Positions 5,538-20,210 of a stretch of DNA of 40,974 bases are shown in pieces. The stretch comes from Rubrivivax sp. (GTDB taxonomy: Bacteria; Pseudomonadota; Gammaproteobacteria; Burkholderiales; Burkholderiaceae_C). Numbering within the stretch: the first letter of the stretch is position 1; each line of letters starts with the position of its first letter. The stretch covers positions 1-40,974 of the forward strand of contig JAEUPC010000134.1 in NCBI GenBank assembly GCA_016789865.1, given 5' to 3'. The translations under genes were made by a program, and so were the position numbers. A model generated the notes under the pieces. It did no database searches. It was not told where the DNA came from and saw only the letters and a list, made by a program, of their open reading frames with translations.

Positions 5538-5587
5538 TCTGATACGGCTTCGCGATCGATCGAACAGGTCAGGGCAAGAGACCGAGG

Positions 5588-5707
5588 CGGGATCGGGCCG
5601 ACGGGGTGCCCTGCTCCGCGAATGTCCTCTTGCGGCGGCCCGGCTTCGCTGGTCCCCCGCATGCCCCCTTGATTTCGCTGCGCAAGGCACCCCATCGTCC
5701 CGATCCG
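5588..5707 (-). repeat. palindromic dispersed element, copy 1A (core on minus strand)
   Basis: Outer arms 5588-5614 and 5682-5707 are complementary at 22 of 26 positions (arm type GATCGGGCCGACGGGGTG). On the minus strand the core between them reads GCGAAATCAAGG...CCAGCGAAGCCGGGCC...AAGAGGACATTCGCGG. The GCGAAGC loop closes an inner stem that is weaker than in the other copies. The same core occurs three more times in the window (5775-5841, 19839-19901 and 19999-20065). Confidence 0.8.
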
Positions 5708-5746
5708 ACACCCGCGTAGGAACTTGGCCGACGAAGCCCAACCCAG

Positions 5747-5868
5747 GTGCCACCGAGGACGGCGGGTGGTCGGCGCAGCGAAATAAAGGATGCATTCAGG
5801 GGTCCAGCGACGCTGGGCCGCTGAAAAAGGACATTCGCGGAGCCGACCACGCGCCATCCTCGGCGCCA
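5747..5868 (+). repeat. palindromic dispersed element, copy 1B (core on plus strand)
   Basis: Outer arms 5747-5774 and 5842-5868 (extending to 5869) pair at about 24 of 28 positions and are of a second arm type (GGCGGGTGGTCGGC). The core at 5775-5841 reads GCGAAATAAAGGATGCAT, then an inner stem TTCAG...CTGAA closed by GCGACGC, then AAAAAGGACATTCGCGG. It faces copy 1A across a 39-bp spacer. Confidence 0.8.
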
Positions 5869-6008
5869 CCACCTCGTCGAAGGCCCTTCCATGTTTTCGA
5901 CCGCAAATGCGTATGAAATGAATCGAGTGCCCGAATCGAGTGCGTGAAGCGGGCCGGCGCCCGTTTCATCTCGTGCTTGGGGGCGGGGGTCACCGGGCCG
6001 GCGCCGCG

Positions 6009-7976
6009 TCACTCCAGCCGCAACGGCGCGGCCAGCGCGTGGTCGACGACGATGAACTCGCCGCCGCCCACGTAGCGCAGCTTCAGCGCGTCGTAGCGCC
6101 CGCCGCTCGCGGCCCCTGCCGTGCCGGTGCTGCTGCGCCCGAGCAGCGAGGTGCGCACGGCGCCGCCGTTGAACGGTGCGGCGACCAGGCGCGTGCCGTC
6201 GGCCGAGCAGGCGACCGCCGCCCAGGTGTCGCTCGTGCCCTGCGCGGTCCAGCTGGCGCCGGCGTCGAGCGACACGTGCAGCCGGCCCGGGTGGTCGGCG
6301 GCCAGCAGCCGCCGGCCGTCGGCCGACGAGGCCACGGCGAGCCAGCGGCCTGAAGGGCCGACCGGCGACCAGTTCACCCCGCCGTCGGTGGAGCGGTACA
6401 GGCGCCCGCCATCTGCCGCAGCCACCAGCTTCAGGCCATCGGCCGACGAGGCCACGCCGCGCCACTCGCGCGCGCTTTCGCGCTGCGTCCAGTTCGCACC
6501 GGAGTCGCTGGAGGTGTAGATGTAGTCCCCGCCGCGCACCACGGCCACCAGGCGCGTCCCGTCGGCCGAGGAGGCCACGGAGTCCCATACCCTTGTGCTG
6601 TCGCGCGACGTCCAGTTGCTGCCGCCGTCGGTGGAGGTGTAGATCTGGCCGAACTGCGCCACGGCCACGAGCTTCAGGCCGTCGCTGGACGAGGCCAGGC
6701 CGGTCCAGCCGCGCGCGCTCTCCTGCGCCGCCCAGTTGGCGCCGCCGTCGGTGGAGATGTAGATCTGGCTGTTGTCGGCCGCCGCGGCCAGACGCAGGCC
6801 GTCGTCGGAGGAGGCCACCGCGGTCCATTGGCGCACCGACTCGCGGGCCGTCCAGCTGGCGCCGCCGTCGGTGGAGACCTGCAGGTTGCCGCCCATCTGT
6901 GCCGCCACCAGGCGCTGGCCGTCGGCCGACGACGCCACCGCTGCGAAGGCGCCGCCTGTCAGCGGCGTGGCCGCCCACACCCCCACGTGCGGCACCGCGC
7001 GCGCGCTGACGAACTGGCCGGCGTTCTGCGCGATCTTCCAGCCGCCAAAGCCGGCGCCGGAGACCGCCACCGTGTCACCCAGCGCCGGGCTGGCCGGCAG
7101 CGTCAGCGTGACCAGCGTATCGCCGGTGGCCAGATAACCGGTGTTCGCGGCCATCGCCTGCGTGGAGTCGGCGGCGGCCACCCAGTTCAGGTCGGCACTG
7201 GGGGCGCCGTTGCACACGTAGTCGGTGCGGCTCACCTCGCCCATGTCGAGCGCGGCGTTGCCGTTGGCGTCCAGGCCCGAGCTCACGCGCTTGCCGCCGT
7301 AGGTGCAGTTTGCGCCGGCGGTTTCGTCGGCGATGGCCATCAGGCTGGCAACGCCGTTGCTGCCGTTCGTGCCGTTGCTGCCGTTGGACCCGTTCGTGCC
7401 ATTCGTGCCATTCGTGCCGTTCGTGCCGTTCGACCCGTTGGCGCCCGCGCACACGTAGCTCGTGCTGGTGGCCTCGCCGGCGAGTGCCAGCACGCCGTTG
7501 CCGTCGAGGTCGAGCCCGGCGCTGATGCGCGAGCCGCCGGCAGCGCACTGGGCCCCGGGCGCTTCGGCATCGATGCGCACCAGCGCCAGCGCGGCGGCGC
7601 TGCCGCTGGCGCCGTTGCTGCCGTTGGCGCCATTGGCACCCGCGGTGCCCGGTGCCCCGTGGCAGGCGAACTGCACGCCGCTCACCTCGGCGCTGTCGAG
7701 CGCGCCGTTGTTGTTGGCATCGATGCCCGATTCGATGCGGCTGCCGCCGTGCGAACAGTTGGCGCCGACCGGTTCGACGCTCACCTTGGTGGCGGCGAAG
7801 CGGGCCGCGGCCGTACCGCCACCGCCGCCGGCGCTACCGCTGTCGCCGCTGCCGGCACCCCCACCCCCACCTCCGTCTCCGCCGCAGGCTGCGAGCGCGA
7901 CAACAACGGCAGCGGTACACAGCGCCCGCGGCCCGCTGCGCGCGGCAGCGCGGCCCCACAGCCTTTCATTCCACAT
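6009..7976 (-). CDS. large lipoprotein: EF-hand-like modules, collagen-like repeats, Asp-box propeller (paralogue 3)
   Basis: Encodes 655 residues. The lipobox LAAC follows a hydrophobic N-terminal stretch, then a Gly/Ser-rich linker. Next come three modules of about 40 residues with the pattern PxGANCxxGGxRIxSGxDxNxNGxLDxxEV ending in a Cys. The DxNxNxxLDxxE loop looks like a calcium-binding EF-hand/dockerin loop; I associate these modules with the family named DUF7151. Between modules are collagen-like G-X-Y runs, mostly GTNG and GSNG. After a TLPASPALGDTVAVSG strand-rich linker, seven repeats of about 42 residues carry six Asp boxes (S-T-D-G-G-x-x-W), predicting a seven-bladed propeller. 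The ATG at 7976 lies inside the last codons of the upstream paralogue (11-base overlap). It ends APLRLE instead of the GVFHVE of its sisters. Function unknown. Confidence 0.8.
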   Translation of the reverse strand: MWNERLWGRAAARSGPRALCTAAVVVALAACGGDGGGGGGAGSGDSGSAGGGGGTAAARFAATKVSVEPVGANCSHGGSRIESGIDANNNGALDSAEVSGVQFACHGAPGTAGANGANGSNGASGSAAALALVRIDAEAPGAQCAAGGSRISAGLDLDGNGVLALAGEATSTSYVCAGANGSNGTNGTNGTNGTNGSNGSNGTNGSNGVASLMAIADETAGANCTYGGKRVSSGLDANGNAALDMGEVSRTDYVCNGAPSADLNWVAAADSTQAMAANTGYLATGDTLVTLTLPASPALGDTVAVSGAGFGGWKIAQNAGQFVSARAVPHVGVWAATPLTGGAFAAVASSADGQRLVAAQMGGNLQVSTDGGASWTARESVRQWTAVASSDDGLRLAAAADNSQIYISTDGGANWAAQESARGWTGLASSSDGLKLVAVAQFGQIYTSTDGGSNWTSRDSTRVWDSVASSADGTRLVAVVRGGDYIYTSSDSGANWTQRESAREWRGVASSADGLKLVAAADGGRLYRSTDGGVNWSPVGPSGRWLAVASSADGRRLLAADHPGRLHVSLDAGASWTAQGTSDTWAAVACSADGTRLVAAPFNGGAVRTSLLGRSSTGTAGAASGGRYDALKLRYVGGGEFIVVDHALAAPLRLE

Positions 7977-9942
7977 GGAACACCCCCGCGGCGCTGTGAT
8001 CGATGGCGACGAACTCGCCGTTGCCCACGTACTGCAGCGTGAGCGTGTCGTGGGCGCCGCCGCTGATCGAGCCGCCGGTGCCGGCCGTGCTGCGGCCGCT
8101 GAAGGACGTGTGGATGCCTCCACCGAAGTCTGCGATGGCCACGATGCGGCTGCCATCGGCCGAGATGACCGAACCGCGCCAGTAAAGCGCAGGGCCTTGC
8201 GGCGCCCACGTGAGCCCGCCGTCCTTCGAGATGTACAGCGGGCTGTTCCAGTCCGCGACGACAAGCGTGTTGCCGTCGGGCGACGAGTTGATCGACCACC
8301 AGTCCGTGGTCACCGCGCCCGCGCTCCAGTTCGCACCGGCGTCGACCGACGTGTAGATGGCGCCGGCGTAGGCCACGGCGGCGAGCTTGTTGCCGTCGGC
8401 CGATGAGGTCACCGAATTCCACAGGCGGTTGCTGTCGCGCGCCGTCCAGGTGGAGCCGGTGTCCGTGGATGTGTAGAGCTGGCCGTTGTTGACGGCGGCC
8501 ACCAGCTTGGTGCCGTCGCTCGACGAGGCGAGGGCAGTCCACTCACGGGCGCTGTCGCGGGCGGTCCAGGTGTCGCCGCCATCGCTGGAGGTGTAAATCT
8601 GCCCGCTGTCGGCGGCGGCGACCAGCTTGCTGCCGTCGGCCGACGAGGCAACCGCGCGCCACGCACGGGCCGACTCGCGCGTCGACCAGCTCGCACCGGC
8701 ATCGGTCGACAAATGAATCTGCGCGTTGTGGGCAACGGCCACCAGCCTGGTGCCGTCGGCCGACGAGGCGACCGCGCGCCACGAGTTCGTGATCGGGCGT
8801 TCGGTCCAGGTCGTGCCCGCGTCCGTGGAGGTGTAGATCGACCCCGACCAGGTCACGACCACCAGCTTGCGGCCATCGGCCGACGCTGCCACGGCATGCG
8901 GGTCGAACGCCGGCGTCGAGGCGTGCCACACGCTGCCCGCTGCCAAGTCGTTGGGCACCCCTCGGGCACTGATGGACTGCCCGGCGTTCTGCGCGACTTT
9001 CCAGCCCCCCGCGCCCACGCCGTTGACGGCCACCACGTCGCCGACGTTCGGGCTGGCCGGCAGCGTCAGCGTCACCTGCGCCGAGGCATGGCTGGCCAGG
9101 TAGCCGGTGTTGGCGGCCATCGTGGCGCTGGTGCCGGCGACGTTCACCCACGCCATGCCCGGGGCCGGGGCACCGTGGCACAGGTAGTCGGTGCTCGCCA
9201 CCTCGCCGGCGTCGAGCACGCCGCTGCGGTTTGCATCGGCACCGGCGGTGACTTTCTTGCCGCCGTGCGTGCAGTGGGCGCCCGCGGCTTCGTCGGCAAT
9301 GGCGATCAGGCGGTTCAGGCCGTTGGCGCCGTTCGCGCCATTCGTGCCGTTGGTGCCGTTCGTGCCATTCGTGCCGCTCGTGCCATTCGCGCCATTGGCC
9401 CCGCTGGCGCCCGAGCACACGTAGCTGGTGCTGGTCACCTCGCCCGCATCGAGCTGGCCGCTGGCATTGGTGTCGCGGCCGGCTTCGATCTTCGTGCCGC
9501 CCGGCGCGCAGTTCGCTCCGGGTGCCTCGGTGACCAGCCGCACGAGGCTGGCCGTGCCGGGGGCGCCGGCCGCGCCGTTGTTGCCGCTGGCGCCGGGGAT
9601 GCCCGCACCGCCCGGCCCACCGTGGCAGGCGAACTGCACGCCGCTGACTTCGCTGCTGTCGAGCTGGCCGTTGCCGTTGGCGTCGAGGCCCGATTCGATG
9701 CGGGCGCCGCCGAGTGCGCAGTTGGCACCGGCCGGTTCCAGCGAGACCTTGGCCGCGGCGATGGTCGCCGTGTCGTGGCCGGCCTCGGTGGTGCCGTGGC
9801 CGGCGCCGTCGCCGCCGCACGAGGCCAGCAGCGCCGCGACGAGGGCCGCCGCCAACGTGCCCGCGCCCGGTCGCGGGTGCTGCGCGATGGGGCCGGCTCG
9901 ATCTGCGCCGCCGGCGCGGCCGCCGTGTGTGTCACTCCACAT
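7966..9942 (-). CDS. large lipoprotein: EF-hand-like modules, collagen-like repeats, Asp-box propeller (paralogue 2)
   Basis: Encodes 658 residues with the same domain order as its neighbours. The N-terminus (MWSDTHGGRAGG) leads to a hydrophobic run and lipobox LASC. Three Cys-containing DxNxNxxLDxxE modules follow, separated by G-X-Y runs (GTNG repeated, also GAPG/GIPG types), then a VTLPASPNVGDVVAVNG linker and seven propeller repeats with six Asp boxes such as STDAGTTW and SSDGGDTW. It ends GVFHVE. Its ATG at 9942 overlaps the end of paralogue 1 by 11 bases: the CATGTGGA of the ending HVE codons supplies the start MW. No separate ribosome-binding site is visible, so translation is probably coupled. 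Likely anchored in the outer membrane; partner or ligand unknown. Confidence 0.82.
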   Translation of the reverse strand: MWSDTHGGRAGGADRAGPIAQHPRPGAGTLAAALVAALLASCGGDGAGHGTTEAGHDTATIAAAKVSLEPAGANCALGGARIESGLDANGNGQLDSSEVSGVQFACHGGPGGAGIPGASGNNGAAGAPGTASLVRLVTEAPGANCAPGGTKIEAGRDTNASGQLDAGEVTSTSYVCSGASGANGANGTSGTNGTNGTNGTNGANGANGLNRLIAIADEAAGAHCTHGGKKVTAGADANRSGVLDAGEVASTDYLCHGAPAPGMAWVNVAGTSATMAANTGYLASHASAQVTLTLPASPNVGDVVAVNGVGAGGWKVAQNAGQSISARGVPNDLAAGSVWHASTPAFDPHAVAASADGRKLVVVTWSGSIYTSTDAGTTWTERPITNSWRAVASSADGTRLVAVAHNAQIHLSTDAGASWSTRESARAWRAVASSADGSKLVAAADSGQIYTSSDGGDTWTARDSAREWTALASSSDGTKLVAAVNNGQLYTSTDTGSTWTARDSNRLWNSVTSSADGNKLAAVAYAGAIYTSVDAGANWSAGAVTTDWWSINSSPDGNTLVVADWNSPLYISKDGGLTWAPQGPALYWRGSVISADGSRIVAIADFGGGIHTSFSGRSTAGTGGSISGGAHDTLTLQYVGNGEFVAIDHSAAGVFHVE

Positions 9943-11902
9943 GGAACACCCCCGTGGCCGTGTAGTCGATGGGCATGAACTCGCCGCCGCCGATGTACTG
10001 CAGCTTCAACATGTCGTACTGGCTGCCGCTGAGTGCGCCGCCGGTGCCGGTGGTGGTGCGGCCGGCCGCCGAGCGGTAGATGGCGCCGCTTTGCGATACC
10101 GCGGCAAGCCGCTTGCCGTCGGCCGAGGCGGCCGCGGCGCGCCAGTTGCGGCTGCTTTCGCGCGGCTGCCAGGTGGTGCCGCCGTCGTGCGACGTGTACA
10201 TCAGGTCGCCTTCGGGCATCGCGACCAGTTGCGAGGCGTCGGCCGAGGAGGCCAGGCCCGCCCATTGGCGCACACCGGCGCGGGCGGTCCAGTTCTGGCC
10301 GCCGTCGGTGGAGATGTGGAGCTGGCCGTTGTAGGCCGCGGCGGCCAGTTCGAAGCCGCTGGCCGACGAGGACAGCGCGGTCCAGTTGGCCGCCGAGCCC
10401 TGCGGATTCCACGTGACGCCGCTGTCGGTGGAGATGTAGATCTGCTCGGCCAGCCCGGCGGCCACCAGGCGGCGCCCGTCGGCCGACGAGGCCACGCTGG
10501 TCCAGTTGCGGTTGCTGTCGCGAGCGGTCCAGTTGGCACCGCCGTCGGTGGAGGTGTGGATCTGGCCGCCGTAGGCCACGGCGACGAGCTTCATGCCCTC
10601 GGCCGACGAGGCCACTGCGCGCCAGGGCACGTCGCTGCCCGTGCGCTCGCTCCAGTTCGTGCCACCGTCGGTGGAGGTGTAGACACGGCCGCCATTGACG
10701 ACGGCGACCATCTTCAAGCCGTCGGCGGAGGAGGCCACGCCGGCCCAGTTGCGTGCGCTCGCGCGCGGGAACCATGTGCCGCCGGCATCGGTGGAGACGT
10801 ACAGCGCGCTGCCGTCGGCGGCGGCGACCAGGCGCTCGCCGCTGGCGGAAGAGGCGATGGCCTTCCAGTCCAGTGCCGGGCCGGCGGTCAGCCACAGCGC
10901 ACCGGCCGGCCGGTCGGTGGGCGCTGCGATGGCCGAGATGAACTGGCCGGCGTTCTGCGCCACCTTCCAGCCGCCGCTGCCCACGCCATTGACGACGACG
11001 ATGTCGCCCAGCGCCGGGCTGGCCGGCAGCGTGAGCGTGGTCAGCGAGGTGCTCGTCGCCACGTAGCCGGTGTCAGGCGCCATGGCCTGGCTGGTGCCGG
11101 CCACCTGCACCCACGCCAGCGCGGCGCCGGGCGAGGGCTGGCACAACGTGGTGGTGCTGGCGACCTCGCCGCCATCGAGCACGCTGTTGCGGTTGGTGTC
11201 GAGCCCGCTGGTCACGATCTTGCCGCCATGCGCGCAGGTGACGCCGACGGGCTCGTTGGCGATGGCGATCAGCGCGTCCAGGCCGTCGGTGCCGTTGGCC
11301 CCGTTGCTGCCGTTCGTGCCGTTGCTGCCGTTCGATCCGTTCGTGCCGTGGCTGCCGTTGGCGCCGTCGGTGCCGGTGCAGGCGTAGCGCGTGCTGGTCA
11401 CCTCGCCGTCGTCGAGCACGGCGCTGGTGTTGGCGTCCAGGCCGGCGCGCACGCGCGCGCCGCCGAGCGGGCAGTTGGCTCCGGCGGGTTCGGCGTCGAT
11501 GCGCACGAGGCTGTTCACGCCGGCGGCCCCGGCCGCGCCGTTGGCGCCCTGGGCGCCGGCGCCGCCGGCCGCGCCCGGCGTGCCGTTGCAGGCGTACTGC
11601 ACGCCCGTCACCTCGGCCGTGTCGAGCGCACCGTTGCCATTGGCGTCGATGCCCGACTCGATGCGCGTGCCGCCCCAGATGCAATGGGCGCCCGCTGGTT
11701 CGAGGCTGACCTTGGCCTTGGCCGAGGCGACTGCGGCGGCCGGCGTGGCGGCCACCGTGTCTGCGCTGCCGTCGGTGGCGTGACCGCCGCAGCCCGCCAG
11801 CCCGGCCAGCACCGAGGCCGCGGCGGCGGCGAGGCGAAGCGGCCCGGTGTGTGGATGCGGGCGCGCGCCGGGCCAGCGGCGCGATGAGATGGCCAAAGAC
11901 AT
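9932..11902 (-). CDS. large lipoprotein: EF-hand-like modules, collagen-like repeats, Asp-box propeller (paralogue 1, first of array)
   Basis: Encodes 656 residues. The start at 11902 is supported by a GGAGGAA ribosome-binding site and an N-terminus MSLAISSRRW leading to a hydrophobic segment and lipobox LAGC; the open frame up to 12076 lacks these. Domain order is three EPAGAxC...SGxDxNxNxxLDxxEV modules with G-X-Y runs (GSNG/GTNG, GAAG), a TLPASPALGDIVVVNG linker, then seven repeats with six Asp boxes (STDGGTNW, STDGGANW, SHDGGTTW and others). Asp-box propellers occur in sialidases, sortilins and YCF48-like proteins, but no sialidase Arg triad or catalytic motif is evident, so a binding or scaffold role is more likely. 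It ends GVFHVE, and its last codons contain the start of the next gene. Confidence 0.84.
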   Translation of the reverse strand: MSLAISSRRWPGARPHPHTGPLRLAAAAASVLAGLAGCGGHATDGSADTVAATPAAAVASAKAKVSLEPAGAHCIWGGTRIESGIDANGNGALDTAEVTGVQYACNGTPGAAGGAGAQGANGAAGAAGVNSLVRIDAEPAGANCPLGGARVRAGLDANTSAVLDDGEVTSTRYACTGTDGANGSHGTNGSNGSNGTNGSNGANGTDGLDALIAIANEPVGVTCAHGGKIVTSGLDTNRNSVLDGGEVASTTTLCQPSPGAALAWVQVAGTSQAMAPDTGYVATSTSLTTLTLPASPALGDIVVVNGVGSGGWKVAQNAGQFISAIAAPTDRPAGALWLTAGPALDWKAIASSASGERLVAAADGSALYVSTDAGGTWFPRASARNWAGVASSADGLKMVAVVNGGRVYTSTDGGTNWSERTGSDVPWRAVASSAEGMKLVAVAYGGQIHTSTDGGANWTARDSNRNWTSVASSADGRRLVAAGLAEQIYISTDSGVTWNPQGSAANWTALSSSASGFELAAAAYNGQLHISTDGGQNWTARAGVRQWAGLASSADASQLVAMPEGDLMYTSHDGGTTWQPRESSRNWRAAAASADGKRLAAVSQSGAIYRSAAGRTTTGTGGALSGSQYDMLKLQYIGGGEFMPIDYTATGVFHVE

Positions 11903-12226
11903 GCGTTCCTCCAGCGCGGGTTCGCGAGGCTCACAGCCTTTTCGGCCGCTGCGGGCGCGACTGAAACCTCGCGGCGTTCGGCCCGCGGCTCGCGGCGCAC
12001 GGCGCGGCAAAGTGCCGCGCCTCACGCAACCGGGCCAAGGTCGGCGCGCGCGGCGGCAGTCCCAATTCCTGGGCACGACGCCGGCGTGGTCTCTTGGAGC
12101 GCTCGGCCGCGCTTCCTAGACTGCCGCCGCCCCGGTGCGCTGCGGGGCGGGGCGCCCGGCCCCGGGGCCTGACACGAACGGCCCTTCGACGCGCCAGCAC
12201 TTCAACTGAGAACGCCAGAGGAGACC
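11903..12226. other. 324-bp divergent promoter region, no gene seen
   Basis: Separates the first lipoprotein gene (minus) from the PQQ sugar dehydrogenase gene (plus). It holds a candidate plus-strand promoter (12094-12122), GC-rich inverted repeats around 12123-12170, and the ribosome-binding sites of both flanking genes. The long frames through it look like high-GC shadows, with many Arg and Pro and no domain. Confidence 0.6.
12094..12122 (+). promoter_or_regulatory. candidate sigma-70 promoter of the PQQ sugar dehydrogenase gene
   Basis: TTGGAG at 12094-12099 and TAGACT at 12117-12122 are separated by exactly 17 bp. Both keep the most conserved positions of the -35 and -10 consensus. The start codon is about 105 bp downstream. 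It was found by eye, so the chance of coincidence is real. Confidence 0.4.
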
Positions 12227-13504
12227 ATGAAAAAACGCCTGATCGCCACTGCAATGCTTGCCGGCCTGGTGAGCGCTGCCTCAGCCCAGCCGAACCTGGA
12301 AAAGCTCAAGCAGTTCCGGGTGGCCACGACGGACCTGAACATCCCCGTGGTGCCGCAAGCCGGCCCCAACGCCGCGGCCATCCGCGAGAACCTCAAGCGG
12401 GTGAAGCTGCCGCCGGGGTTCAAGATCGACCTCTACGCCATCGTGCCCGACGCGCGGCACATGGCGGTGGCGCCGTCGACCAACATGCTGTTCGTCGGCA
12501 CGCGCAAGACCGCCGTGTGGGCGGTGACCGACCGCAACAGCGACGGTGTCGCCGACGAGGTGAAGAGCTTCGCGCCGAGCCTGAAGTTCACCAACCCCAA
12601 CGGCGTGTGCTGGACGAAGGACGGCTTCCTCATCGTCGTGGAGCACAACCGCGTGCTCAACTTCCCGGCCGCCGAGTTCTTCTACGAAGGCCCCGACGTC
12701 GCGGTGATCGAGGTGCTGCCGCAGGGCAAGCTGATCCCGCCCGAAGAGGAAAGCTTCAACCACGGTGCGCGTACCTGCCGCGTCAGCGACGACGGCAAGC
12801 TGTACATCACGCTGGGCCAGCCGTTCAACGTGCAGCCCAAGGAGAAGATCGCGCTGTACGAGCAGCTGGGCATCGGCGGCATGATCAGCATCAACCCGTT
12901 CGACGGCACCGGCCGCACGGTGGTGGCCCGGGGCGTGCGCAACTCGGTGGGCATGGACATCAGCCCGAAGGACAAGACGGTGTGGTTCACCGACAACCAG
13001 ACCGACGGCATGGGTGACGACACCCCGCCCGGCGAACTCAACCGCATCACCCGCCCGGGCGGCGGCGGCGAGCACTTCGGCTACCCGTACATCCACGGCA
13101 ACAACGTGGTGATCGCCGGCACCGGCGCCGCGCCCGACCTCAAGGGCATGAACCCGCCGTCGCAGTGGACCCGGCCGCAGGTGGAGTTCCCGGCGCACCA
13201 GGCGCAGCTGGGCATGACCTTCTACAACGGCAAGATGTTCCCGGCCAAGTACCAAGGCGGCATCTTCGTGGCCGCACACGGCTCGTGGAACCGCGTCAAG
13301 CCGAGCGGCGCCTTGATCGACTTCGTTTCGGTGAAGGCCGACCGCACGGCCGACAAGCACGAGGTGTTCGCGCAGGGCTGGCTCGACGAGAACGGCATCT
13401 ACCGCGGCCGCCCGGTCGACGTGGCCGTGATGAAGGACGGCTCGCTGCTCATCAGCGACGACTTCGCCGGCGCCATCTACCGCGTCACCTACTCCGCTCC
13501 GTAG
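12227..13504 (+). CDS. PQQ-dependent sugar dehydrogenase (GSDH/sorbosone dehydrogenase family)
   Basis: Predicted periplasmic quinoprotein that oxidises aldoses or similar sugars and passes electrons to a cytochrome. Encodes 425 residues with a classic signal peptide (MKKRLIATAMLAGLVSAASA, cleavage after ASA). The mature part is a beta-propeller of the soluble aldose-dehydrogenase type: PGFKIDLYA, MLFVGTR, FTNPNGVCWTKDGFL, NHGARTCRVSDDGKLYITLG, GVRNSVGMD, WFTDNQTDGMGDDTPPGELN, FGYPYIHG, FVAAHGSWNR and GRPVDVAVMKDGSLLISDD. An AGAGGAGA ribosome-binding site precedes the ATG. The cytochrome c gene begins 7 bp after the stop, consistent with an enzyme/electron-acceptor pair. The exact substrate cannot be told from sequence. 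Confidence 0.9.
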   Translation: MKKRLIATAMLAGLVSAASAQPNLEKLKQFRVATTDLNIPVVPQAGPNAAAIRENLKRVKLPPGFKIDLYAIVPDARHMAVAPSTNMLFVGTRKTAVWAVTDRNSDGVADEVKSFAPSLKFTNPNGVCWTKDGFLIVVEHNRVLNFPAAEFFYEGPDVAVIEVLPQGKLIPPEEESFNHGARTCRVSDDGKLYITLGQPFNVQPKEKIALYEQLGIGGMISINPFDGTGRTVVARGVRNSVGMDISPKDKTVWFTDNQTDGMGDDTPPGELNRITRPGGGGEHFGYPYIHGNNVVIAGTGAAPDLKGMNPPSQWTRPQVEFPAHQAQLGMTFYNGKMFPAKYQGGIFVAAHGSWNRVKPSGALIDFVSVKADRTADKHEVFAQGWLDENGIYRGRPVDVAVMKDGSLLISDDFAGAIYRVTYSAP

Positions 13505-13511
13505 GCGCGTT

Positions 13512-13883
13512 GTGCGCGCTTTGCGTGGGGGGGCCGGCGCCGCCCACCGGCCCGGCCTTGGCCGGCTGTGGCTGCTGCCTGCGCTGCTGGCCGGTTCCAT
13601 GGGCGTCTTTGGGCCTGCCCATGCCCAGGACGCGGCCAGCGGCCGTGCGCGCGCGCAGCCTTGCGTCGTGTGTCATGGCCCGCTCGGCTTGTCGACGATG
13701 CCGGACACGCCGCACCTTGCCGGCCAGCCGGCCATCTATCTGGCCGCGCAGCTGCGCGCTTACCGCAGCGGCGCGCGCAAGCACGAGGTCATGGCGGTGA
13801 TGGCCCGGCCGCTGACTGACGCGGACATCGAGCAACTCGCGGCGTGGTTCGCGTCGATCCGCGTCGAGGCCAAGGAGCCTTGA
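13512..13883 (+). CDS. small periplasmic class I cytochrome c
   Basis: Encodes 123 residues from a GTG start. An Arg-containing N-terminus and a hydrophobic segment end in AHAQ, a likely signal cleavage site near residue 38. A single haem site CVVCH lies at residues 51-55, with candidate axial Met94 or Met97 in HEVMAVMAR, and the C-terminal LTDADIEQLAAWFASI helix is typical of class I cytochromes. It lies 7 bp after the PQQ sugar dehydrogenase, so it is the probable electron acceptor. The GTG at 13512 has no strong ribosome-binding site. The first ATG (13599) would remove the signal peptide, so GTG is preferred. Confidence 0.85.
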   Translation: MRALRGGAGAAHRPGLGRLWLLPALLAGSMGVFGPAHAQDAASGRARAQPCVVCHGPLGLSTMPDTPHLAGQPAIYLAAQLRAYRSGARKHEVMAVMARPLTDADIEQLAAWFASIRVEAKEP

Positions 13884-13944
13884 GCCAGGGCGCGGGGCCC
13901 ACCCGGGCCCCACGCAGGCCTGCCGTGGATGGCGGCGCGTACGC

Positions 13945-13967
13945 CGCGCCGTCGGCGCGCGCTTTTC
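13945..13967 (+). terminator. candidate intrinsic terminator after the cytochrome c gene
   Basis: A 6-bp stem CGCGCC/GGCGCG with a 3-base loop is followed by CGCTTTT, about 60 bp after the cytochrome stop and immediately before the convergent DUF1810 gene. The stem is short but pure GC. Confidence 0.4.
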
Positions 13968-14477
13968 TCAGCCTGCGCGCACGTTGTCCAGCAGCGCCAG
14001 CGTGGCCGCGTCGCGCTGGCCGCGGAAGTACTTTTCGATCAGGTGCGTGAACACCGGCTCGTCGGGCGCGGCGCGTTCGAACAGCGTCAGGCACGAGCGC
14101 AGCTTGAACTCGTCGACGCTGCCGAAGATGGCCAGCGCCGTGCGGCCCTGCAGCCGCTGCAGGATCTCGCAGCATTGCAGCAGCCGCGGGCCGAGCAGTG
14201 GGTGGGCGACGTAGGCCTCGGCCTCGGCGAGCGAGGCGACACCGAAGCGCCGCGCCAGGTCGCTGCGGCCCAGGCCGCGCAGCTGCGGGAACACGAACCA
14301 CATCCAGTGGGTTCGCTTGGCGCCTTCCTCGAGCTCCTCGATCACGCTGTCCCAGGCAGGGTCCTGGGCGTGGATGAAGCGCTCCAGCTCGTTCGAGCCC
14401 GGCGCGGGGCCGCTGGGCTGCAGCTCGCCCGGCAGCGTGGTGTGGGCCCACGGATCGGGCCGCTTGCTGCTGGTCAT
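13968..14477 (-). CDS. DUF1810 family protein
   Basis: Encodes 169 residues from the ATG at 14477; a second ATG two codons upstream at 14483 is equally possible. Almost the full length matches the DUF1810 pattern: LERFIHAQDPAWDSVIEEL, KRTHWMWFVFPQLRGLG, ARRFGVASLAEAEAYVAHPL, LGPRLLQCCEIL, GRTALAIFGSVDEFKLRSCL, TLFERAAPDEPVF and LIEKYFRGQRDAATLALL. No signal peptide, so cytoplasmic. The biochemical role of this family is not known to me. It faces the cytochrome gene and shares no obvious operon with its neighbours. Confidence 0.88.
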   Translation of the reverse strand: MTSSKRPDPWAHTTLPGELQPSGPAPGSNELERFIHAQDPAWDSVIEELEEGAKRTHWMWFVFPQLRGLGRSDLARRFGVASLAEAEAYVAHPLLGPRLLQCCEILQRLQGRTALAIFGSVDEFKLRSCLTLFERAAPDEPVFTHLIEKYFRGQRDAATLALLDNVRAG

Positions 14478-14637
14478 GACCATGGGTCCAGTCTACGGTC
14501 GCGCGCGCACGGGTAACCACCATTCAAACCCGCCTGTCACGAGTGCCACGAACGCAGGCCGCGACGCGGGGTTGGCCAGCGCGGATTGTGCGCCCATGGC
14601 GCTTCGGGTGGGCCGGGGCGTGCCGCGGCGCAGCCGC

Positions 14638-15492
14638 TCAGCGCCGCGGAACGGCCTTCTTGGCGGCGCCTGCGCGAGCCGCTCGCGAACCCGCGGCGCG
14701 CCGGCTGGCGCGGCGGGTGCGCGCCTCGCTCTCGGGCGCTGCCGAAGGGGCCGGTTCGCCGGCCTCGCGATAGCCGGCGAACAGGTCGCGCAGGGTCGCT
14801 GGCGGCCGCGGTGCGGGGCGGGTCAGCGCGGTCTGCAGTTCGGCCAAGTGCTGCTTCATCTCGGCCGCCGCGGCCGCCGCACCCAGGCGCAGCGCAGAGA
14901 TCAGCTCCACATGGCGGTGCGCCACGCACACGGGCTGCCCGCTTGCCGCGAACCGCGACATCAGCAGCGAGGTGGTGGGCAGCAGCGAGTCCAGCAGCCG
15001 CGCCAGCACCGGGTTGCCGTGCATGCGCGCGAGCGCCTGGTGGAATTCGCCCGACAAGCGCACGGCCCGCGCCGCGTCGCCGGCTTCGCTGGCGTGCCGC
15101 TCCTGCTCGGCCAGGGCCGTCAGCTCTTCCAGCTGCGCGGTGCCCAGCCGCCCGCCCAGGCGGCGTGCGATCTCGCACTCGGCCACGCGGCGCGCTTCGA
15201 ACACATGCTCGGCATCGGCCAGCTCCGGCGAGGGCACGCGCGCCCCACGGTTGTGGATCAACTCCACCACCTGGTGTTGCGCCAGGCGGTGCAGCGCCTG
15301 GCGTACCACGGTGCGCGAGACGCCGAAGGACCCGGCCAGCTCCTCCTCGCGCAGCCAGGCGCCGGCCGCCAGCCGGCGCTCCAGCACGGCCAGGTAGATG
15401 CCTTCGTAGACGCGCCCGGTGGCCGTGCCCGCGGCGCCGCCGCGATGGGCCGGACCTGGCGGTGGGGCCGGCGGCGGGTCACGCGGGGGCAT
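14638..15492 (-). CDS. GntR-family transcriptional regulator with FCD domain
   Basis: Encodes 284 residues. A winged helix-turn-helix spans about residues 28-90 (VYEGIYLAVLERRLAAG, LREEELAGSFGVSRTVVRQA, LHRLAQHQVVELIHNRGARV), followed by an all-helical FCD ligand domain (FEARRVAECEIARRL, ALAEQERHA, FHQALARMHGNPVLARLL, HRHVELISAL, AEMKQHL). The His residues of FHxxL, of HRHVEL and of MKQHL fit the usual FCD metal/ligand site. The last 50 residues are an unusual Ala/Arg-rich tail. It is the last gene of the dipeptide-type ABC operon, which points to local control. Candidate operators lie at 21970-21984 and 22080-22094. Confidence 0.9.
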   Translation of the reverse strand: MPPRDPPPAPPPGPAHRGGAAGTATGRVYEGIYLAVLERRLAAGAWLREEELAGSFGVSRTVVRQALHRLAQHQVVELIHNRGARVPSPELADAEHVFEARRVAECEIARRLGGRLGTAQLEELTALAEQERHASEAGDAARAVRLSGEFHQALARMHGNPVLARLLDSLLPTTSLLMSRFAASGQPVCVAHRHVELISALRLGAAAAAAEMKQHLAELQTALTRPAPRPPATLRDLFAGYREAGEPAPSAAPESEARTRRASRRAAGSRAARAGAAKKAVPRR

Positions 15493-15583
15493 GGCGGTGC
15501 GGGTCCCGGGGGGCGTGGTGGGCCGCGTGTGTCGCAGGGCGGTGGCGGCGCTGGGGTGGTGCAGGTGCCGCGGCGCCGCAGGA

Positions 15584-16582
15584 TCAGCGACCGGCGGCGC
15601 CCAGCGTCGCCCCGGTGTGGATGCAGCGGGCCTGGTGGCCGGGTTGCAGCGTCACCACCTGCGGCGCAGCGGCCGAACAAGCCTCGGTGACGAAGCGGCA
15701 GCGCTCGGCGAATGCGCAGCCCGCGGGCAGGTTGGCCAGGTCGGGCGGCGCGCCGCCGATCGTCTCCAGCCGCTCCCCCTTGGCCAGGGCGCCGTGCGCG
15801 CGGCTGCCCAGCAGGGCCAGCGTGTAGGGGTGCCGCGGCTCGCGGATCAGCGTGCGCGCCGGGCCTTCCTCGACGATGCGGCCGGCATACATCACCGCGA
15901 TGCGGTCGGCCACCTCGATGGCCGCGCCGATGTCGTGGGTGACGAAGATGACCGCCAGCCCCATCTCGCGCTGCAGTTCGCGCAGCAGCAACAGGATCTG
16001 GATTTGCACCGTGGCATCGAGCGCGGTGGTCGGCTCGTCGGCCAGCAGCAACTGCGGCTTGCAGGCCAGCGCCAGCGCGATCATCGCGCGCTGGCGCATG
16101 CCGCCGCTCATCTCGTGCGGGAAGGCCGCCAGCCGCCGTTCGGGGCTGGGGATGTGCACCCGCTCGAAGAGTCCGAGGGCGCGCTTGTGCGCTGCATCGG
16201 CCGAGGTGGCCGGCTCGTGGCGGCGGATGGCCTCGGCGATCTGCGCGCCCACGCTGTACACCGGGTCCAGCGCGAGCAGCGGCTCCTGGAAGATCATCGA
16301 AGCGACCTTGCCGCGGTAGTCGGCCAGTGCCGCGGGCGCCAGCTTCAGCACCTCATGCCCGCCGACCACGATGCGCCCGCCGATCGTCGTCTTGCGCGGC
16401 GGGTGCAGCTTGAGCAGCGAACGCAGCGTGACGCTCTTGCCCGAGCCCGATTCGCCGATCAGCGCCACCACTTCGCCGCGCCGCACCTGCAGGTCGACGC
16501 CGCCCACCGCCTTCACCGGCTGGCGCCCGCCGGTGAAGGTGACGGTGAGGCCCTGGATGTCGACGAAGGGCGCGTCGTTCAC
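15584..16582 (-). CDS. oligopeptide/dipeptide-type ABC transporter ATP-binding protein (DppD-like)
   Basis: Encodes 332 residues from a GTG start at 16582 (VNDAPFVDIQGL). Motifs are Walker A GESGSGKS, signature MSGGMRQRAMIALALA, Walker B LLLADEPTTALD and the H-loop FVTHDIG. The C-terminal oligopeptide/dipeptide extension has ANLPAGCAFAERCRF and a Cys-rich tail, which in this family can hold an Fe-S cluster. An upstream ATG at 16666 is in frame but would overlap the preceding ATPase gene by 29 bases and adds an Arg-rich tail, so GTG is preferred. It drives import of the ligand bound by the product of 20211-21869. Confidence 0.9.
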   Translation of the reverse strand: MNDAPFVDIQGLTVTFTGGRQPVKAVGGVDLQVRRGEVVALIGESGSGKSVTLRSLLKLHPPRKTTIGGRIVVGGHEVLKLAPAALADYRGKVASMIFQEPLLALDPVYSVGAQIAEAIRRHEPATSADAAHKRALGLFERVHIPSPERRLAAFPHEMSGGMRQRAMIALALACKPQLLLADEPTTALDATVQIQILLLLRELQREMGLAVIFVTHDIGAAIEVADRIAVMYAGRIVEEGPARTLIREPRHPYTLALLGSRAHGALAKGERLETIGGAPPDLANLPAGCAFAERCRFVTEACSAAAPQVVTLQPGHQARCIHTGATLGAAGR

Positions 16583-16637
16583 CGCGGGCCCTTCGCGCCG
16601 TGGGCATCGGCCTTCGCCGCCGGGCGGCCAAGCGGGT

Positions 16638-17675
16638 TCATGCCGCCACCTTCGGCGCCGCGCCATGCCCGCTGCCGGCCTCGTACATCAGGCAAGCCAC
16701 CGGGTGGGCCGCGGCGGGCCCCGTGCCGAGCGTGGGCACCTTGCTGCTGCACGCCGCTTGCGCCATCGCGCAGCGGGTGTGGAAGCGGCAGCCCGAAGGC
16801 GGATTGATGGGATTGGGCGGGTCGCCGGCCAGCGGCGGCCGCTCGGTGCGCCGGTCGGGGTCCATCGTCGGGATGCTGGACAGCAGCGCCCGCGTGTAGG
16901 GGTGCAGCGGCGCCTCGAACAGCGCCTCGCCGCGGCCGAGCTCGACCACCTGGCCGAGGTACATCACCATCACGCGGTCGCTGACGTAGCGCACCACGTT
17001 GAGGTCGTGGCTGATGAAGAGGTAGGTCAGGCCGAACTCGTCTTTCAGGTCGAGCAGCAGGTTCAGCACCTGCGCTTCCACCGACTTGTCCAGCGCCGAG
17101 ACGGCTTCGTCGAGGATGATGACGCGCGGCTGCAGCGCCAGCGCACGCGCGATGTTCACGCGCTGGCGCTGGCCGCCCGAAAGCTCGTGCGGGTAGCGTT
17201 CGGCAAAGCGCTGCGGCTCCAGGCCCACGCGCGAGAGCAGGTCGCGCGCGCGCTCCACGGCCTCGCGCGCCGGCGTGCCATGCACCTGCGGCGCAAACGC
17301 GATGCTGTCTTCGATGGTCAGGCGCGGGTTCAGCGACGCGTAGCTGTCCTGGAACACCATCTGCACCTGGCGGCGGTAGGTCTTCAGCGGCAGCGCGGCG
17401 CTGCCGACCACGGCGCCATCGAAGACGATCTCGCCGGCGCCCGGCTCGATGAGGTGCATCAACAGGCGCGCGGTGGTGCTCTTGCCGCAGCCCGATTCGC
17501 CCACCACGCCCAGCGTTTCGCCGCGCGCCACGTCGAAGCTCACGCCGTCGACCGCGCGCACCACGCCGCCGCCGCGGCCGAAGACGTCTTTCTTCAGCGG
17601 GAAGTGCTTGACCAGGCTGCGCACCTGCAACAGCGGCGCCGCGGCCTTCGCACCCGGTGCGCCGGCTGCACTCAT
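16638..17675 (-). CDS. oligopeptide/dipeptide-type ABC transporter ATP-binding protein (DppF-like)
   Basis: Encodes 345 residues, the second ATPase of the importer. Motifs are LVKHFPLKK at the N-terminus typical of DppF/OppF, Walker A GESGCGKST, Q-loop MVFQDSYASLNPR, signature LSGGQRQRV, Walker B VIILDEAVSALD and H-loop FISHDLNVVRYV. The C-terminal extension has NPINPPSGCRFHTRCAMA. The ATP-binding site looks intact. It lies 58 bp after the second permease gene in the same operon. Confidence 0.92.
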   Translation of the reverse strand: MSAAGAPGAKAAAPLLQVRSLVKHFPLKKDVFGRGGGVVRAVDGVSFDVARGETLGVVGESGCGKSTTARLLMHLIEPGAGEIVFDGAVVGSAALPLKTYRRQVQMVFQDSYASLNPRLTIEDSIAFAPQVHGTPAREAVERARDLLSRVGLEPQRFAERYPHELSGGQRQRVNIARALALQPRVIILDEAVSALDKSVEAQVLNLLLDLKDEFGLTYLFISHDLNVVRYVSDRVMVMYLGQVVELGRGEALFEAPLHPYTRALLSSIPTMDPDRRTERPPLAGDPPNPINPPSGCRFHTRCAMAQAACSSKVPTLGTGPAAAHPVACLMYEAGSGHGAAPKVAA

Positions 17676-17733
17676 TGGACACCCCTGCGCTCTACGCGCT
17701 GCGGGACGAGCGCCTGGGAACGGCCGGCCGCGT

Positions 17734-18621
17734 TCATGCCTTGATCTCCATCGCGCTGCGCAGCCCGTCAGACAGCAGATTGAACGCCACCGAGGTGACG
17801 AAGATCATCACGCCGGGCAGCGCGGCCAGCCACGGCTGCACGTAGATGGCGGTGCGCAGCGTGTTGAGCATCAGCCCCCACTCGGGCTCGGGCGGCTTGA
17901 CGCCCAGGCCGAGGAAGGAAAGGCCCGACGCCAGGATCATGCTCACGGCGATCAGGCTCGTGGCGTAGACGAAGATCGGCCCGAGCACGTTGCCCAGCAC
18001 GTGCACGCGCACGATGGTCATGGCGCCGGCACCGCTGGCGCGCGCGGCCTCGACGAAGTCGCGCGCGCGAATCTGCGTGGTCACGCTCTCGGCCACGCGG
18101 GCGATCGGCGGAATGAACACCACCGTCAGCGAGATCAGAGAATTGGTGATGCCCGCACCCAGCGCACCCGAAAGTGCAATCGCCAACAGCACCGACGGGA
18201 AGGCGTAGAACACATCGATGGTGCGCATGATCACCGTGTTCAGCGCGCCGCCGGCATAACCGGCCACGATGCCGATGAACGAGCCCAGCACGAACGCGCA
18301 CAGCACCGGCGTGATGCCCATGAACAGCGACAGTCGGGCGCCCACGATCAGGCGGCTGAGCATGTCCCGGCCCAGTTCGTCGGTGCCCAGTGGGTGGTCT
18401 TCGGTGCCGATTTCCTTCAGGCGCTTGAGCACCGAAGCGGCGAAGGGATCGGCCGGCGCCAACGCGGGGCCGAACACGGCCATCACCAGCAGCGCCAGCA
18501 CCACCAGCCCGGCGGCCATGGCGACCTTGTCGCGCACGAGGCGCCGGCCCACCGTCTGCCAGTAGCCGGGCGAGCGCTCGAAGACCGCTTCGGGCAGGGG
18601 TTCGAGGATGGTGCTGTGCAT
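17734..18621 (-). CDS. oligopeptide/dipeptide-type ABC transporter permease (DppC-like)
   Basis: Encodes 295 residues. A hydrophilic N-terminus is followed by a first membrane helix (VAMAAGLVVLALLVMAVFGPAL), a periplasmic loop with HPLGTDELGRDMLSRLIVGARLSL that is diagnostic of DppC/OppC, and further helices. The EAA-type loop reads DFVEAARASGAGAMTIVRVHVLGN and contacts the ATPases, and GLSFLGLGVKPPEPEWG is near the end. The inner-membrane topology is as expected for the family. Separated from the DppB-like gene by 136 bp containing a GC-rich repeat. Confidence 0.92.
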   Translation of the reverse strand: MHSTILEPLPEAVFERSPGYWQTVGRRLVRDKVAMAAGLVVLALLVMAVFGPALAPADPFAASVLKRLKEIGTEDHPLGTDELGRDMLSRLIVGARLSLFMGITPVLCAFVLGSFIGIVAGYAGGALNTVIMRTIDVFYAFPSVLLAIALSGALGAGITNSLISLTVVFIPPIARVAESVTTQIRARDFVEAARASGAGAMTIVRVHVLGNVLGPIFVYATSLIAVSMILASGLSFLGLGVKPPEPEWGLMLNTLRTAIYVQPWLAALPGVMIFVTSVAFNLLSDGLRSAMEIKA

Positions 18622-18690
18622 GTGTCAGTGCCCCGAACTCATTCGCAGCGGTTCGGCGATCTGCCGGCAAGCCAGCCGAGCGATCGCCGC

Positions 18691-18757
18691 GGAACCGGCT
18701 TTGCCGGGCCGCTGGCGGTGCCCCCTGGAGGGAGGCGCCGAAGGCGCTTCGGGGGGG
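18691..18757. repeat. GC-rich intergenic palindromic repeat between two permease genes
   Basis: A CCCCCTGGAGG...TTCGGGGGGG inverted repeat spans 18721-18757 with an inner GCGCC-GAA-GGCGC stem, preceded by a second GCC-rich stretch. It starts directly after the DppB-like stop codon on the minus strand. From memory, very similar stretches recur between genes in Burkholderiales genomes; I could not check this here. In an operon it may lower downstream expression or protect the upstream mRNA. Confidence 0.55.
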
Positions 18758-19711
18758 TCATGATCTGGCGATGCGCGGGTCGAGCAGCGTCTGGACCACA
18801 TCGACCACCATGTTGAGCAGCACGAAGAACAGCGCCAGCACGAGGATCGTGCCTTGCAGCAGCGGCAGGTCGCGCTGGAAGATGGCGCTGTTGAGCAGGA
18901 AGCCGGTGCCCGGCCACGCGAACACCGTTTCGATGAGGATCGAGCCGCCCAGCAGGTAACCGAGCTGCAGGCCCATCACCGCCAGCGCGGTGGGCGCGGC
19001 GTTCTTGACCACATGCTTGAACACGCCCCAGTCGGTGAGGCCCTTGGCGCGCAGGCCGACCACGAACTCCTGCGCCAGGATCTCGGCGACGAGTGCGCGC
19101 ACGGTGCGCGCGATGATGCCCATCGGGATGACGCTCATCGTCACCGCCGGCAGCACCATGTGGCGCAGGTGTTCCCAGTTCCATTGCCAGTCGGCGCTGC
19201 TGCCAGGGCCGGCGCCCGAAGCCGGCAGCCAGGGCAGCAGCACGGCGAAGACGATGACCAGCACCATGCCCAGCCAGTAGTGCGGCACGCTCACGCCCAG
19301 CACCGAGGTGAAGCTGGCGGCCTTGTCGACCCAGCTGCCCTGGAAGTAGCCGGCGACGAAGCCGAACAGGCACCCGAGGATGAAGCCGATGAGCGTGGCC
19401 AGCACCGCCAGGCGCAGCGTGTTGCCCACGGCCTTGAAGACTTCAGCCGCCACCGGGCGGCTGGTGGCGATGCTGGTGCCGAGGTCGCCTTGCAGCGCGC
19501 GCCACACCCAGCTGACAAACTGCTCGGGCAAGGTGCGGTCGAAGCCGTAGAGCGTGCGCAGCTGCTGTTGCAGCTCGACGCTGGCATCGGGGGGCAGGAT
19601 GCTGACCAGCGGGTCGCCGGGGGCCAGGTGCACGAGCGCGAAGCACACCAGCGCCACGCCGACCATGATGGGCAAGGTGTAGAGCAGGCGGCGCAGCAGG
19701 AAGGCGATCAC
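18758..19711 (-). CDS. oligopeptide/dipeptide-type ABC transporter permease (DppB-like)
   Basis: Encodes 317 residues beginning MIAFLLRRLLYTLPIMVGVA, the standard DppB/OppB N-terminal helix. LAPGDPLVSI, YGFDRTLPEQFVSWVW and ALQGDLGTSI follow, then helices and the EAA-type cytoplasmic loop EFVVGLRAKGLTDWGVFKHV. FAWPGTGFLLNSAIFQRDLPL and a final helix close the protein. First permease gene of the importer; a 499-bp non-coding stretch separates it from the binding-protein gene upstream. Confidence 0.93.
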   Translation of the reverse strand: MIAFLLRRLLYTLPIMVGVALVCFALVHLAPGDPLVSILPPDASVELQQQLRTLYGFDRTLPEQFVSWVWRALQGDLGTSIATSRPVAAEVFKAVGNTLRLAVLATLIGFILGCLFGFVAGYFQGSWVDKAASFTSVLGVSVPHYWLGMVLVIVFAVLLPWLPASGAGPGSSADWQWNWEHLRHMVLPAVTMSVIPMGIIARTVRALVAEILAQEFVVGLRAKGLTDWGVFKHVVKNAAPTALAVMGLQLGYLLGGSILIETVFAWPGTGFLLNSAIFQRDLPLLQGTILVLALFFVLLNMVVDVVQTLLDPRIARS

Positions 19712-19814
19712 GACTGGCGTGGGTGGCGCGAATGCTGCCGTTGCGCAGGCGGTTGGGACGCTCGAGTTTGAGGTGTTTGAGGTTGAGGCGTTCGCGGTTG
19801 ACGGTTGCGGCGCG

Positions 19815-19925
19815 CCAAGGCCGCCGGGTGGCCGGCTCTGCTCGTTTCCTCTTTCGAGTGCCCTGCTTCGCGGGGCACTCGAATGCCCCCTTTACCTCGC
19901 TGAGCCGGCCACCCAGCGGCCTTGG
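19815..19925 (-). repeat. palindromic dispersed element, copy 2B (core on minus strand)
   Basis: Outer arms 19815-19838 and 19902-19925 pair at 23 of 24 positions (CCAAGGCCGCCGGGTGGCC type). On the minus strand the core reads GCGAGGTAAAGGGGGCATTCGAGTGCCCCGC-GAA-GCAGGGCACTCGAAAGAGG. The inner stem pairs at 13 of 14 positions and is closed by the GCGAAGC loop. The AAAGGACAT block seen in the other copies is altered here to AAGAGGAAAC. Confidence 0.78.
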
Positions 19926-19973
19926 TGGGCACCCGCGCCGCAGTGTGCGCGCTCGTACGCCGCAGCGCGTGGT

Positions 19974-20090
19974 GGATCGGGCCGGCGGGGTGCCCTGCAA
20001 AGCGAAGTAAAGGGTGCATTTGAGGGACCAGCGAAGCTGGGCCCTCAAAAAAGGACATGAGCGGCGCAGGGCACCCCGCCGGCCCGATCC
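19974..20090 (+). repeat. palindromic dispersed element, copy 2A (core on plus strand)
   Basis: Outer arms 19974-19998 and 20066-20090 are perfectly complementary over 25 bp and share sequence with the arms of copy 1A. The core at 19999-20065 reads GCGAAGTAAAGGGTGCAT, then an inner stem TTTGAGGGACCAGC/GCTGGGCCCTCAAA closed by GCGAAGC, then AAAAGGACATGAGCGG. It faces copy 2B across a 48-bp spacer. Confidence 0.83.
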
Positions 20091-20210
20091 CGCCACCACC
20101 TTCGCAGTGCAACGCGATCCCGCCACTGCCGGCAGAGTGCGAACCGAGCCAGCGGTGCATCCCGTTCCTCTCCAGTCGAGCTGGCGACCTCAGGAGCCCG
20201 CCAGCCAACC

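Follow-up and report, generated by a model that had tools for sequence, protein, structure and literature searches.

A dispersed family of divergent hairpin doublets under strand-specific selection in Rubrivivax and related bacteria

Introduction

When the stems of a repeated hairpin change from copy to copy while each arm still pairs with its own partner, is the fold itself under selection, and if so, is it folded DNA or folded RNA that is being read? The question is raised by four hairpins in the window, the whole 40,974-nt stretch of Rubrivivax sp. DNA analysed here (contig JAEUPC010000134.1 of assembly GCA_016789865.1). These hairpins are members of a dispersed family, with copies scattered through the genome and through many related bacteria, that has a characteristic doublet geometry, strand-specific selection on its fold, a patchy distribution and lineage-specific occupied sites. 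The best reading, to which an even chance is given, is that of a dispersed, non-autonomous mobile doublet that would act as folded single-stranded DNA for a putative trans-acting enzyme.

Selection on the fold

The family covariance model (R2) recovers four hairpins of ~121 nt in the window, two in each of two loci (E-values from 3e-15 to 3e-19), at the places where a sequence-only reading had put them. In particular, locus 1 contains hairpin 1A (5588..5708, sense strand minus, arm type GGATCGGG..., 85.6 bits, E = 2.7e-17), which is part of the family alignment, and hairpin 1B (5748..5868, sense strand plus, arm type GCCACCGAGGAC..., 76.2 bits, E = 3.3e-15); locus 2 contains hairpin 2B (19810..19930, sense strand minus, 77.6 bits, E = 1.6e-15) and hairpin 2A (19972..20092, sense strand plus, 94.5 bits, E = 2.7e-19). 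Each locus has one hairpin per arm type, and a weak extra R2 match lies on the opposite strand of hairpin 1A. The inner stems had been read as paired in three of the four hairpins; the fourth (5588..5708) also pairs, with two mismatches. Fold z-scores range from -8.0 to -10.0 for four family members, including hairpin 2A (-9.9).

In the 121-nt frame, positions 5-27 pair with 95-117, 31-35 with 87-91, 48-55 with 71-78, and 57-61 with 65-69; full family matches are mostly about 92-134 nt long, with a few longer. Moving inward, a variable outer stem of ~25 bp with a conserved GGGTG/YACCC block is followed by a GCA/GA mini-loop and by a helix that contains a tandem G.A step; next come an internal loop rich in purines, an inner stem that changes freely from few pairs to many, and the apex. 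The loop region is GCGAAGTAAAGGRGG opposite GRGGACATGAGCG in the relatives that this pattern retrieved, and it differs little in those retrieved with R1, a covariance model trained on the window's own genome. The left side of this region in hairpin 2A lies at 20002..20019 on the plus strand, with its counterpart at 20048-20063, and carries conserved columns and couplings. Flanks and spacer show little sequence conservation. Several loci of genome G024 carry a loop variant, TATTAGGAGGAG.

A DNA search found dozens of relatives in the window's own genome, from which 64 hairpin sequences were aligned (alignment A1), 40 of them forming alignment A2. The covariation score was 0.418 across 40 sequences from this genome, compared to at most 0.124 for slid controls, and 0.635 across 118 diverged matches from relatives, compared to at most 0.100; in the latter set, 38 of 41 pairs change on both sides, and all 23 outer pairs show at least two Watson-Crick types. 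The sequence-only reading had attributed this pattern to selection for structure and had proposed a covariation test with R-scape on a larger set of copies, here emulated with a tree-based null, a G statistic with average product correction and 12 simulations. The test yields 23 significant column pairs, and 23 of 23 fall in the structure, which has 38 testable pairs.

Because the alignment used (A4) was fitted to the structure, 144 exact sequence-pattern matches, found without a pairing criterion, were added; 4 further matches were left out for lack of flank. In these 144 matches, a mean of 19.0 of 20 outer positions pair, compared to 11.8 with shuffled partners, and 139 reach 13. By eye, two sites shared with genome G063 (L005/L296 and L031/L304) have inner stems that differ yet are paired. 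The pairing is far beyond chance and strongly supports the proposal that structure is selected.

Strand specificity and non-canonical loops

From 282 elements with sufficient flank and no fewer than 13 of 20 outer positions paired, an 85% identity filter left 177 non-redundant ones, in which mismatches were counted; one processing step removed 7 of 288 elements by pairing. Across 3540 outer-stem cells, 3106 are Watson-Crick, 312 are G.T or T.G, and 21 are A.C or C.A. In the 144-match set, which has no pairing filter, the numbers are 245 G.T and 21 A.C. Action as a duplex or cruciform, or repair alone, would give approximately equal numbers of G.T and A.C; the 312:21 ratio therefore indicates that one strand matters. 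Consistently, the sense strand folds better in 174 of 177 elements with DNA parameters and in 172 of 177 with RNA parameters. Selection on the fold is strand-specific.

Near-perfect palindromes are known substrates for template switching, and templated repair of quasi-palindromes might by itself maintain the pairing even if the fold were not selected. Such repair predicts no strand bias, in conflict with the excess of G.T over A.C in both sets, and leaves the conserved, coupled unpaired loops and the fixed doublet polarity (see below) unexplained. The asymmetry refutes repair as the sole cause, and this explanation is given next to no weight.

The unpaired positions are also coupled. At the internal-loop pair, A.G occurs in 125 of the 177 elements, G.A in 43, A.A in 9 and G.G in none, while the scan pattern permitted all four; in 2000 shuffles G.G was never so rare, and the A.G pair state changes 20 times on the tree. 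The tandem G.A step is GA/GA in 161 elements, is swapped whole for Watson-Crick pairs in others (GA/TC in 12, GG/CC in 2), and differs otherwise in 2. At the apex, triloops are found in 141 of 177 elements, with GNA in 112 and C-GNA-G in 109, while tetraloops are found in 25, including UUCG once; among comparison hairpins elsewhere in the same loci, only 21 of 378 triloops are GNA. In its passages on such loops, PMC6479982 describes GNA loops as forming very stable DNA minihairpins.

Doublet arrangement

The usual unit is a divergent doublet, consisting of an antisense hairpin, an unconserved spacer of ~40 nt and a sense hairpin, and it is found on either strand. A sequence-pattern scan of public genomes returned at least 120 stretches. 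Searching 80 of these loci with R2 gave 131 matches and 48 adjacent pairs, of which 46 are antisense-then-sense (-+), 1 is the reverse (+-) and 1 is same-direction (++); a looser tally over 120 loci, with partners within 300 nt, gave 67 -+ and 3 +-. The suspicion that the pairing of A and B arm types within a locus matters is borne out by this 46 of 48 polarity. The -+ gaps range from 8 to 109 nt, with 38 of 46 between 34 and 53 nt, making the 39-nt spacer of locus 1 (5709..5747) typical in length; the spacer of locus 2 is 41 nt (19931..19971). No strand is assigned to either spacer.

This geometry bears on whether the elements are an already published repeat, either the Beta-proteobacterial repeat element (BRE) or the Burkholderiales-1 motif. 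As far as its account of the repeat goes, PMC3110155 describes the BRE as a ~90-bp (arrays of 75-91 bp), GC-rich, mostly intergenic repeat of Betaproteobacteria that varies between strains, a description that the present family shares in being short, GC-rich and mostly intergenic. However, the same account places BRE copies that share a locus in tandem, with no or few nucleotides between them, whereas 46 of 48 neighbours here are inverted, mostly 34-53 nt apart, and only 1 of 48 is same-direction; the two are set apart by description, not by sequence. The Burkholderiales-1 motif is listed in the relevant part of PMC2864571 without an Rfam entry, which speaks for identity. Identity with either repeat is improbable. 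Among the papers listed in searches of an open-access library, none describes this element, and the BRE and the Burkholderiales-1 motif were compared by description only, so that a prior description is possible; papers that contain short strings of the motif look unrelated among the matches listed.

Ten loci of genome G024 include two close doublets and five single hairpins. At three of its loci (L238, L241 and L245), the - and + hairpins are 1.8-2.5 kb apart with unlike genes between them, as if doublets had been split or were carrying cargo. An autonomous copy with a gene between its hairpins was considered for these loci and rejected, as their inner parts share only stretches of up to ~310 nt; six open reading frames from the interiors gave no Pfam transposase match and one weak helix-turn-helix match. 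Elsewhere, the same site in two species (L002/L303) carries doublets with arm types in opposite order, which suggests inversion in place or independent insertion.

Distribution of the family

With covariance models, even copies whose stem sequences differ widely can be detected; R1, being trained on this genome, may miss diverged copies. Copy counts are floors where the candidates scored per genome were capped, at 59 in the R1 survey and at 9 in the R2 surveys of order and phylum. On this basis, R1 matches number at least 59 in the window's genome, at least 59 in G009, at least 56 in G012, 47 in G018 and 48 in G027. They are present in 18 of 37 genus members, absent from 19 of 37, and present in 19 of 61 genomes overall. 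With R2, matches were found in 14 of the 399 genomes surveyed across the order and in 14 of the 397 surveyed across the phylum, the window's own genome being counted in each; outside the order but in the same class, they occur in four genomes of one family, with one weak match in another.

Among the 80 scan matches listed, the bearers include Rubrivivax, Hydrogenophaga, Variovorax, Aquabacterium, Paucibacter, Rhodoferax, Methylibium and Caldimonas, together with a Rhodocyclales metagenome-assembled genome (MAG), Sulfurisoma and one Lysobacterales MAG. The distribution is patchy. Viral contigs contained no exact match to the sequence pattern. In plasmid records, a Variovorax doublet matches three large Variovorax replicons, which carry no usable annotation at that place, and one of the window hairpins gave no match.

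Occupied sites and candidate enzymes

Site occupancy was compared with genome G063, where 27 flanks were queried and 18 gave a usable site. Twelve of the 18 sites are hairpin-free in G063, seven with both flanks recovered (L001, L004, L006, L024, L029, L038 and L055) and five with one (L009, L011, L013, L019 and L020); the other six carry hairpins there. Occupied sites are lineage-specific.

A recent subfamily (I; 20 rows, including window locus 1) forms a ~380-bp unit with partly complementary ends, CTSATACG and CGTATSAG; the left end was recovered in 17 rows and the right end is recognisable in 19. The whole unit at locus 1 spans 5539..5917 (no strand assigned) and follows directly on a stop codon ending at 5537; its partly complementary ends are CTGATACGG... 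and ...CGTATSAG, with CGTATGAA in the window copy. Many subfamily-I units abut or supply the stop codon (TGA) of a neighbour gene; at L029 the stop codon is at the same position in the element-free relative, and at L013 the gene ends earlier. At L023/L030 (contig C195 of genome G000, ~2.2-4.5 kb), IS3-type transposase-like sequence was seen by eye beside a broken hairpin, as though the palindrome had been interrupted by an insertion sequence.

One explanation is that these are ordinary repetitive extragenic palindromes (REPs), or the REPINs that they form, moved by a REP-associated tyrosine transposase (RAYT), a link that the sequence-only reading had also suggested. REPs are described in the relevant section of PMC3733652 as dispersed extragenic palindromes that occur as opposite-orientation dimers of unlike units downstream of genes; the present family is likewise dispersed, extragenic, arranged as inverted dimers of unlike units and located downstream of genes, and the RAYT domain Y1_Tnp is common, as counted below. 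However, its hairpins are about 92-134 nt long, compared to 20-40 nt for REPs, and the foot tag GTAG is found in only 4 of 177 elements on the 5' side and 1 on the 3' side within 16-nt stretches (CGTC in 7 and 13), where the flank columns carry little information.

Moreover, Y1_Tnp (PF01797) does not track the element. It is found in 9 of 18 genus members with R1 matches and 11 of 19 without them, and outside the genus in 10 of 12 bearing and 6 of 7 non-bearing genomes, so that it is common but not linked. Bearers free of Y1_Tnp include G012 (99% complete, at least 56 copies) and G018 (94%, 47 copies) and, outside the genus, G219 and G233; Y1_Tnp is also absent from the window's genome, which is 77% complete. 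Near 34 distinct Y1_Tnp places, at least 22 of them in bearing genomes, no confident hairpin was found, with one weak match at E = 0.013; the places correspond to 35 loci, as one is represented by two. A RAYT was rejected as the mobiliser on these grounds, and a reverse transcriptase was rejected as a required partner because 10 of 16 bearing genomes lack RVT_1. The REP/REPIN explanation is largely refuted and very unlikely.

Overall, the family looks like a large relative of the known bacterial palindromic repeats. Like REPs, REPINs and bacterial interspersed mosaic elements (BIMEs), it comprises dispersed extragenic palindromes in inverted, non-identical dimers downstream of genes, is patchy, and is probably moved in trans; unlike them, it has hairpins about three times longer or more, a covarying internal loop, a spacer of near-constant length and free sequence, and a single dimer polarity, and it has neither a GTAG/CGTC tag nor a RAYT link.

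The integron attC site is a strand-specific hairpin recognised more by its shape than by its sequence, with R and L boxes RYYYAAC and GTTRRRY, and the family may work in a similar way. Identity with attC was rejected, as both boxes are found in only 2 of 176 elements (GTTRRRY alone in 6), and the family has inverted doublets. By analogy, the family would work like REPIN dimers and partly like attC, yet it fails their defining features.

Gene context and the choice between DNA and RNA

Gene context was tallied with a home-made gene caller, leaving out 25 clusters at edges and 6 inside a called gene. Of the 97 placed clusters, 67 are between tandem genes, 26 between convergent and 4 between divergent genes, compared to 95, 14 and 55 of 164 background gaps. 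The main rival explanation is that the hairpins work in RNA form at the 3' ends of genes, the divergent pair giving a transcript from either side a terminal sense hairpin that would protect it, be cut by RNase or bind a protein; such roles have been proposed for REPs and BIMEs. It is supported by the avoidance of divergent regions (4 of 97 compared to 55 of 164), by the tolerance of G.T, by the position of window locus 2 between genes for a family-5 solute-binding protein and a permease, and by a fixed Variovorax site with little-changed hairpins.

In contrast, several observations fit an RNA role poorly. Nineteen intact solo hairpins lie 400 nt or more from a locus end; in tandem contexts, 5 of them are sense and 4 antisense (convergent 5, divergent 2, unplaced 3), a balance that does not fit a need for transcription; a cruder solo set has 20 sense and 11 antisense. 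RNA-type tetraloops are rare at the apex, as counted above. Of 176 elements, one has TTTT in the 12 nt after its 3' foot, so intrinsic terminators were rejected; terminator-like hairpins sought as an RNA control numbered only 8, too few to compare. No Rfam match at gathering was found in the window and six relatives' loci, and a permissive search gave three sub-threshold matches in 8 loci; the family resembles Rfam structured RNAs in its internal-loop hairpin and strong covariation, and differs in having no gathering-level match. For the STAXI motif, the pertinent part of PMC2864571 takes UUCG loops as favouring RNA, the same argument in reverse. An RNA role is a serious possibility, held at somewhat less than even confidence.

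The folded single-stranded DNA reading, at even confidence, draws on the covariation, strand specificity, loop coupling and tandem G.A block swaps; on the C-GNA-G apex (109 of 177 elements, compared to GNA in 21 of 378 control triloops), GNA being stable in DNA according to the passages cited from PMC6479982; and on the doublet polarity, the patchy distribution, the hairpin-free sites (12 of 18) and the 5:4 solo orientation. The fold would be exposed as single-stranded DNA during replication or transfer, a putative trans-acting enzyme would recognise it by shape, and the element would be copied or moved as a doublet, so that each strand would present one competent hairpin toward its 3' side.

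Several results weigh against this reading. G.T tolerance also fits RNA, the identity of the apex loop is indirect evidence for DNA, and the folding parameters have no sequence-specific triloop term, so that folding energies do not discriminate between DNA and RNA triloops. The internal-loop A.G coupling is absent from the 23 pairs significant in the tree-based test, and 6 A4 rows have G.G at the loop pair, all being loop-length variants that shift the register. Further, 35 of 131 R2 matches have no partner within 300 nt (16 of these lie at most 400 nt from a locus end), the element-free sites in G063 are too diverged to show clean ends or target duplications, and the search for a mobilising transposase or recombinase found none, with neither Y1_Tnp nor RVT_1 tracking the element. 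Avoidance of divergent gene pairs is expected of elements in 3' untranslated regions. Lastly, at the fixed site in two strains of Variovorax paradoxus (L352/L356), the hairpins have 4 differences in 204 positions, the flanks 9 in 200 and the spacer 11 in 43; few hairpin changes while the spacer drifts may reflect a function at the site. Across 200 kb from each of two Variovorax strains, there is one doublet, common to both.

Divergent doublets, the strand-specific fold, the covarying non-canonical loop and the C-GNA-G apex go beyond what the sequence-only reading had described. Tentatively, and with more doubt than belief, they could define a new class of mobile element, one whose large hairpins, set in inverted doublets and each bearing a structured, purine-rich internal loop, would be read as folded single-stranded DNA, in Burkholderiales and at least one same-class family outside the order, by an enzyme family so far tied to no repeat. 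One and the same fold of a dispersed bacterial repeat is indicated by its strand bias, by compensatory change and by the coupling in its loop. This fold can serve as a defined bait for finding the protein that reads the hairpin, and it allows a test of whether such structured repeats survive as parasitic DNA or because their RNA or DNA is of use to the host.

Genomic surroundings of the window hairpins

Locus 1 is flanked by a gene resembling an FKBP-type peptidyl-prolyl isomerase (below family cut-offs) and by a DUF7151/BNR-repeat gene on the other strand. The gap that holds locus 2, between its solute-binding protein and permease genes, is only ~45 nt in G063. This element-free counterpart (L281, L288) contains a different short inverted repeat, rich in CTCTCC/GGAGAG, that is perhaps another repeat family.

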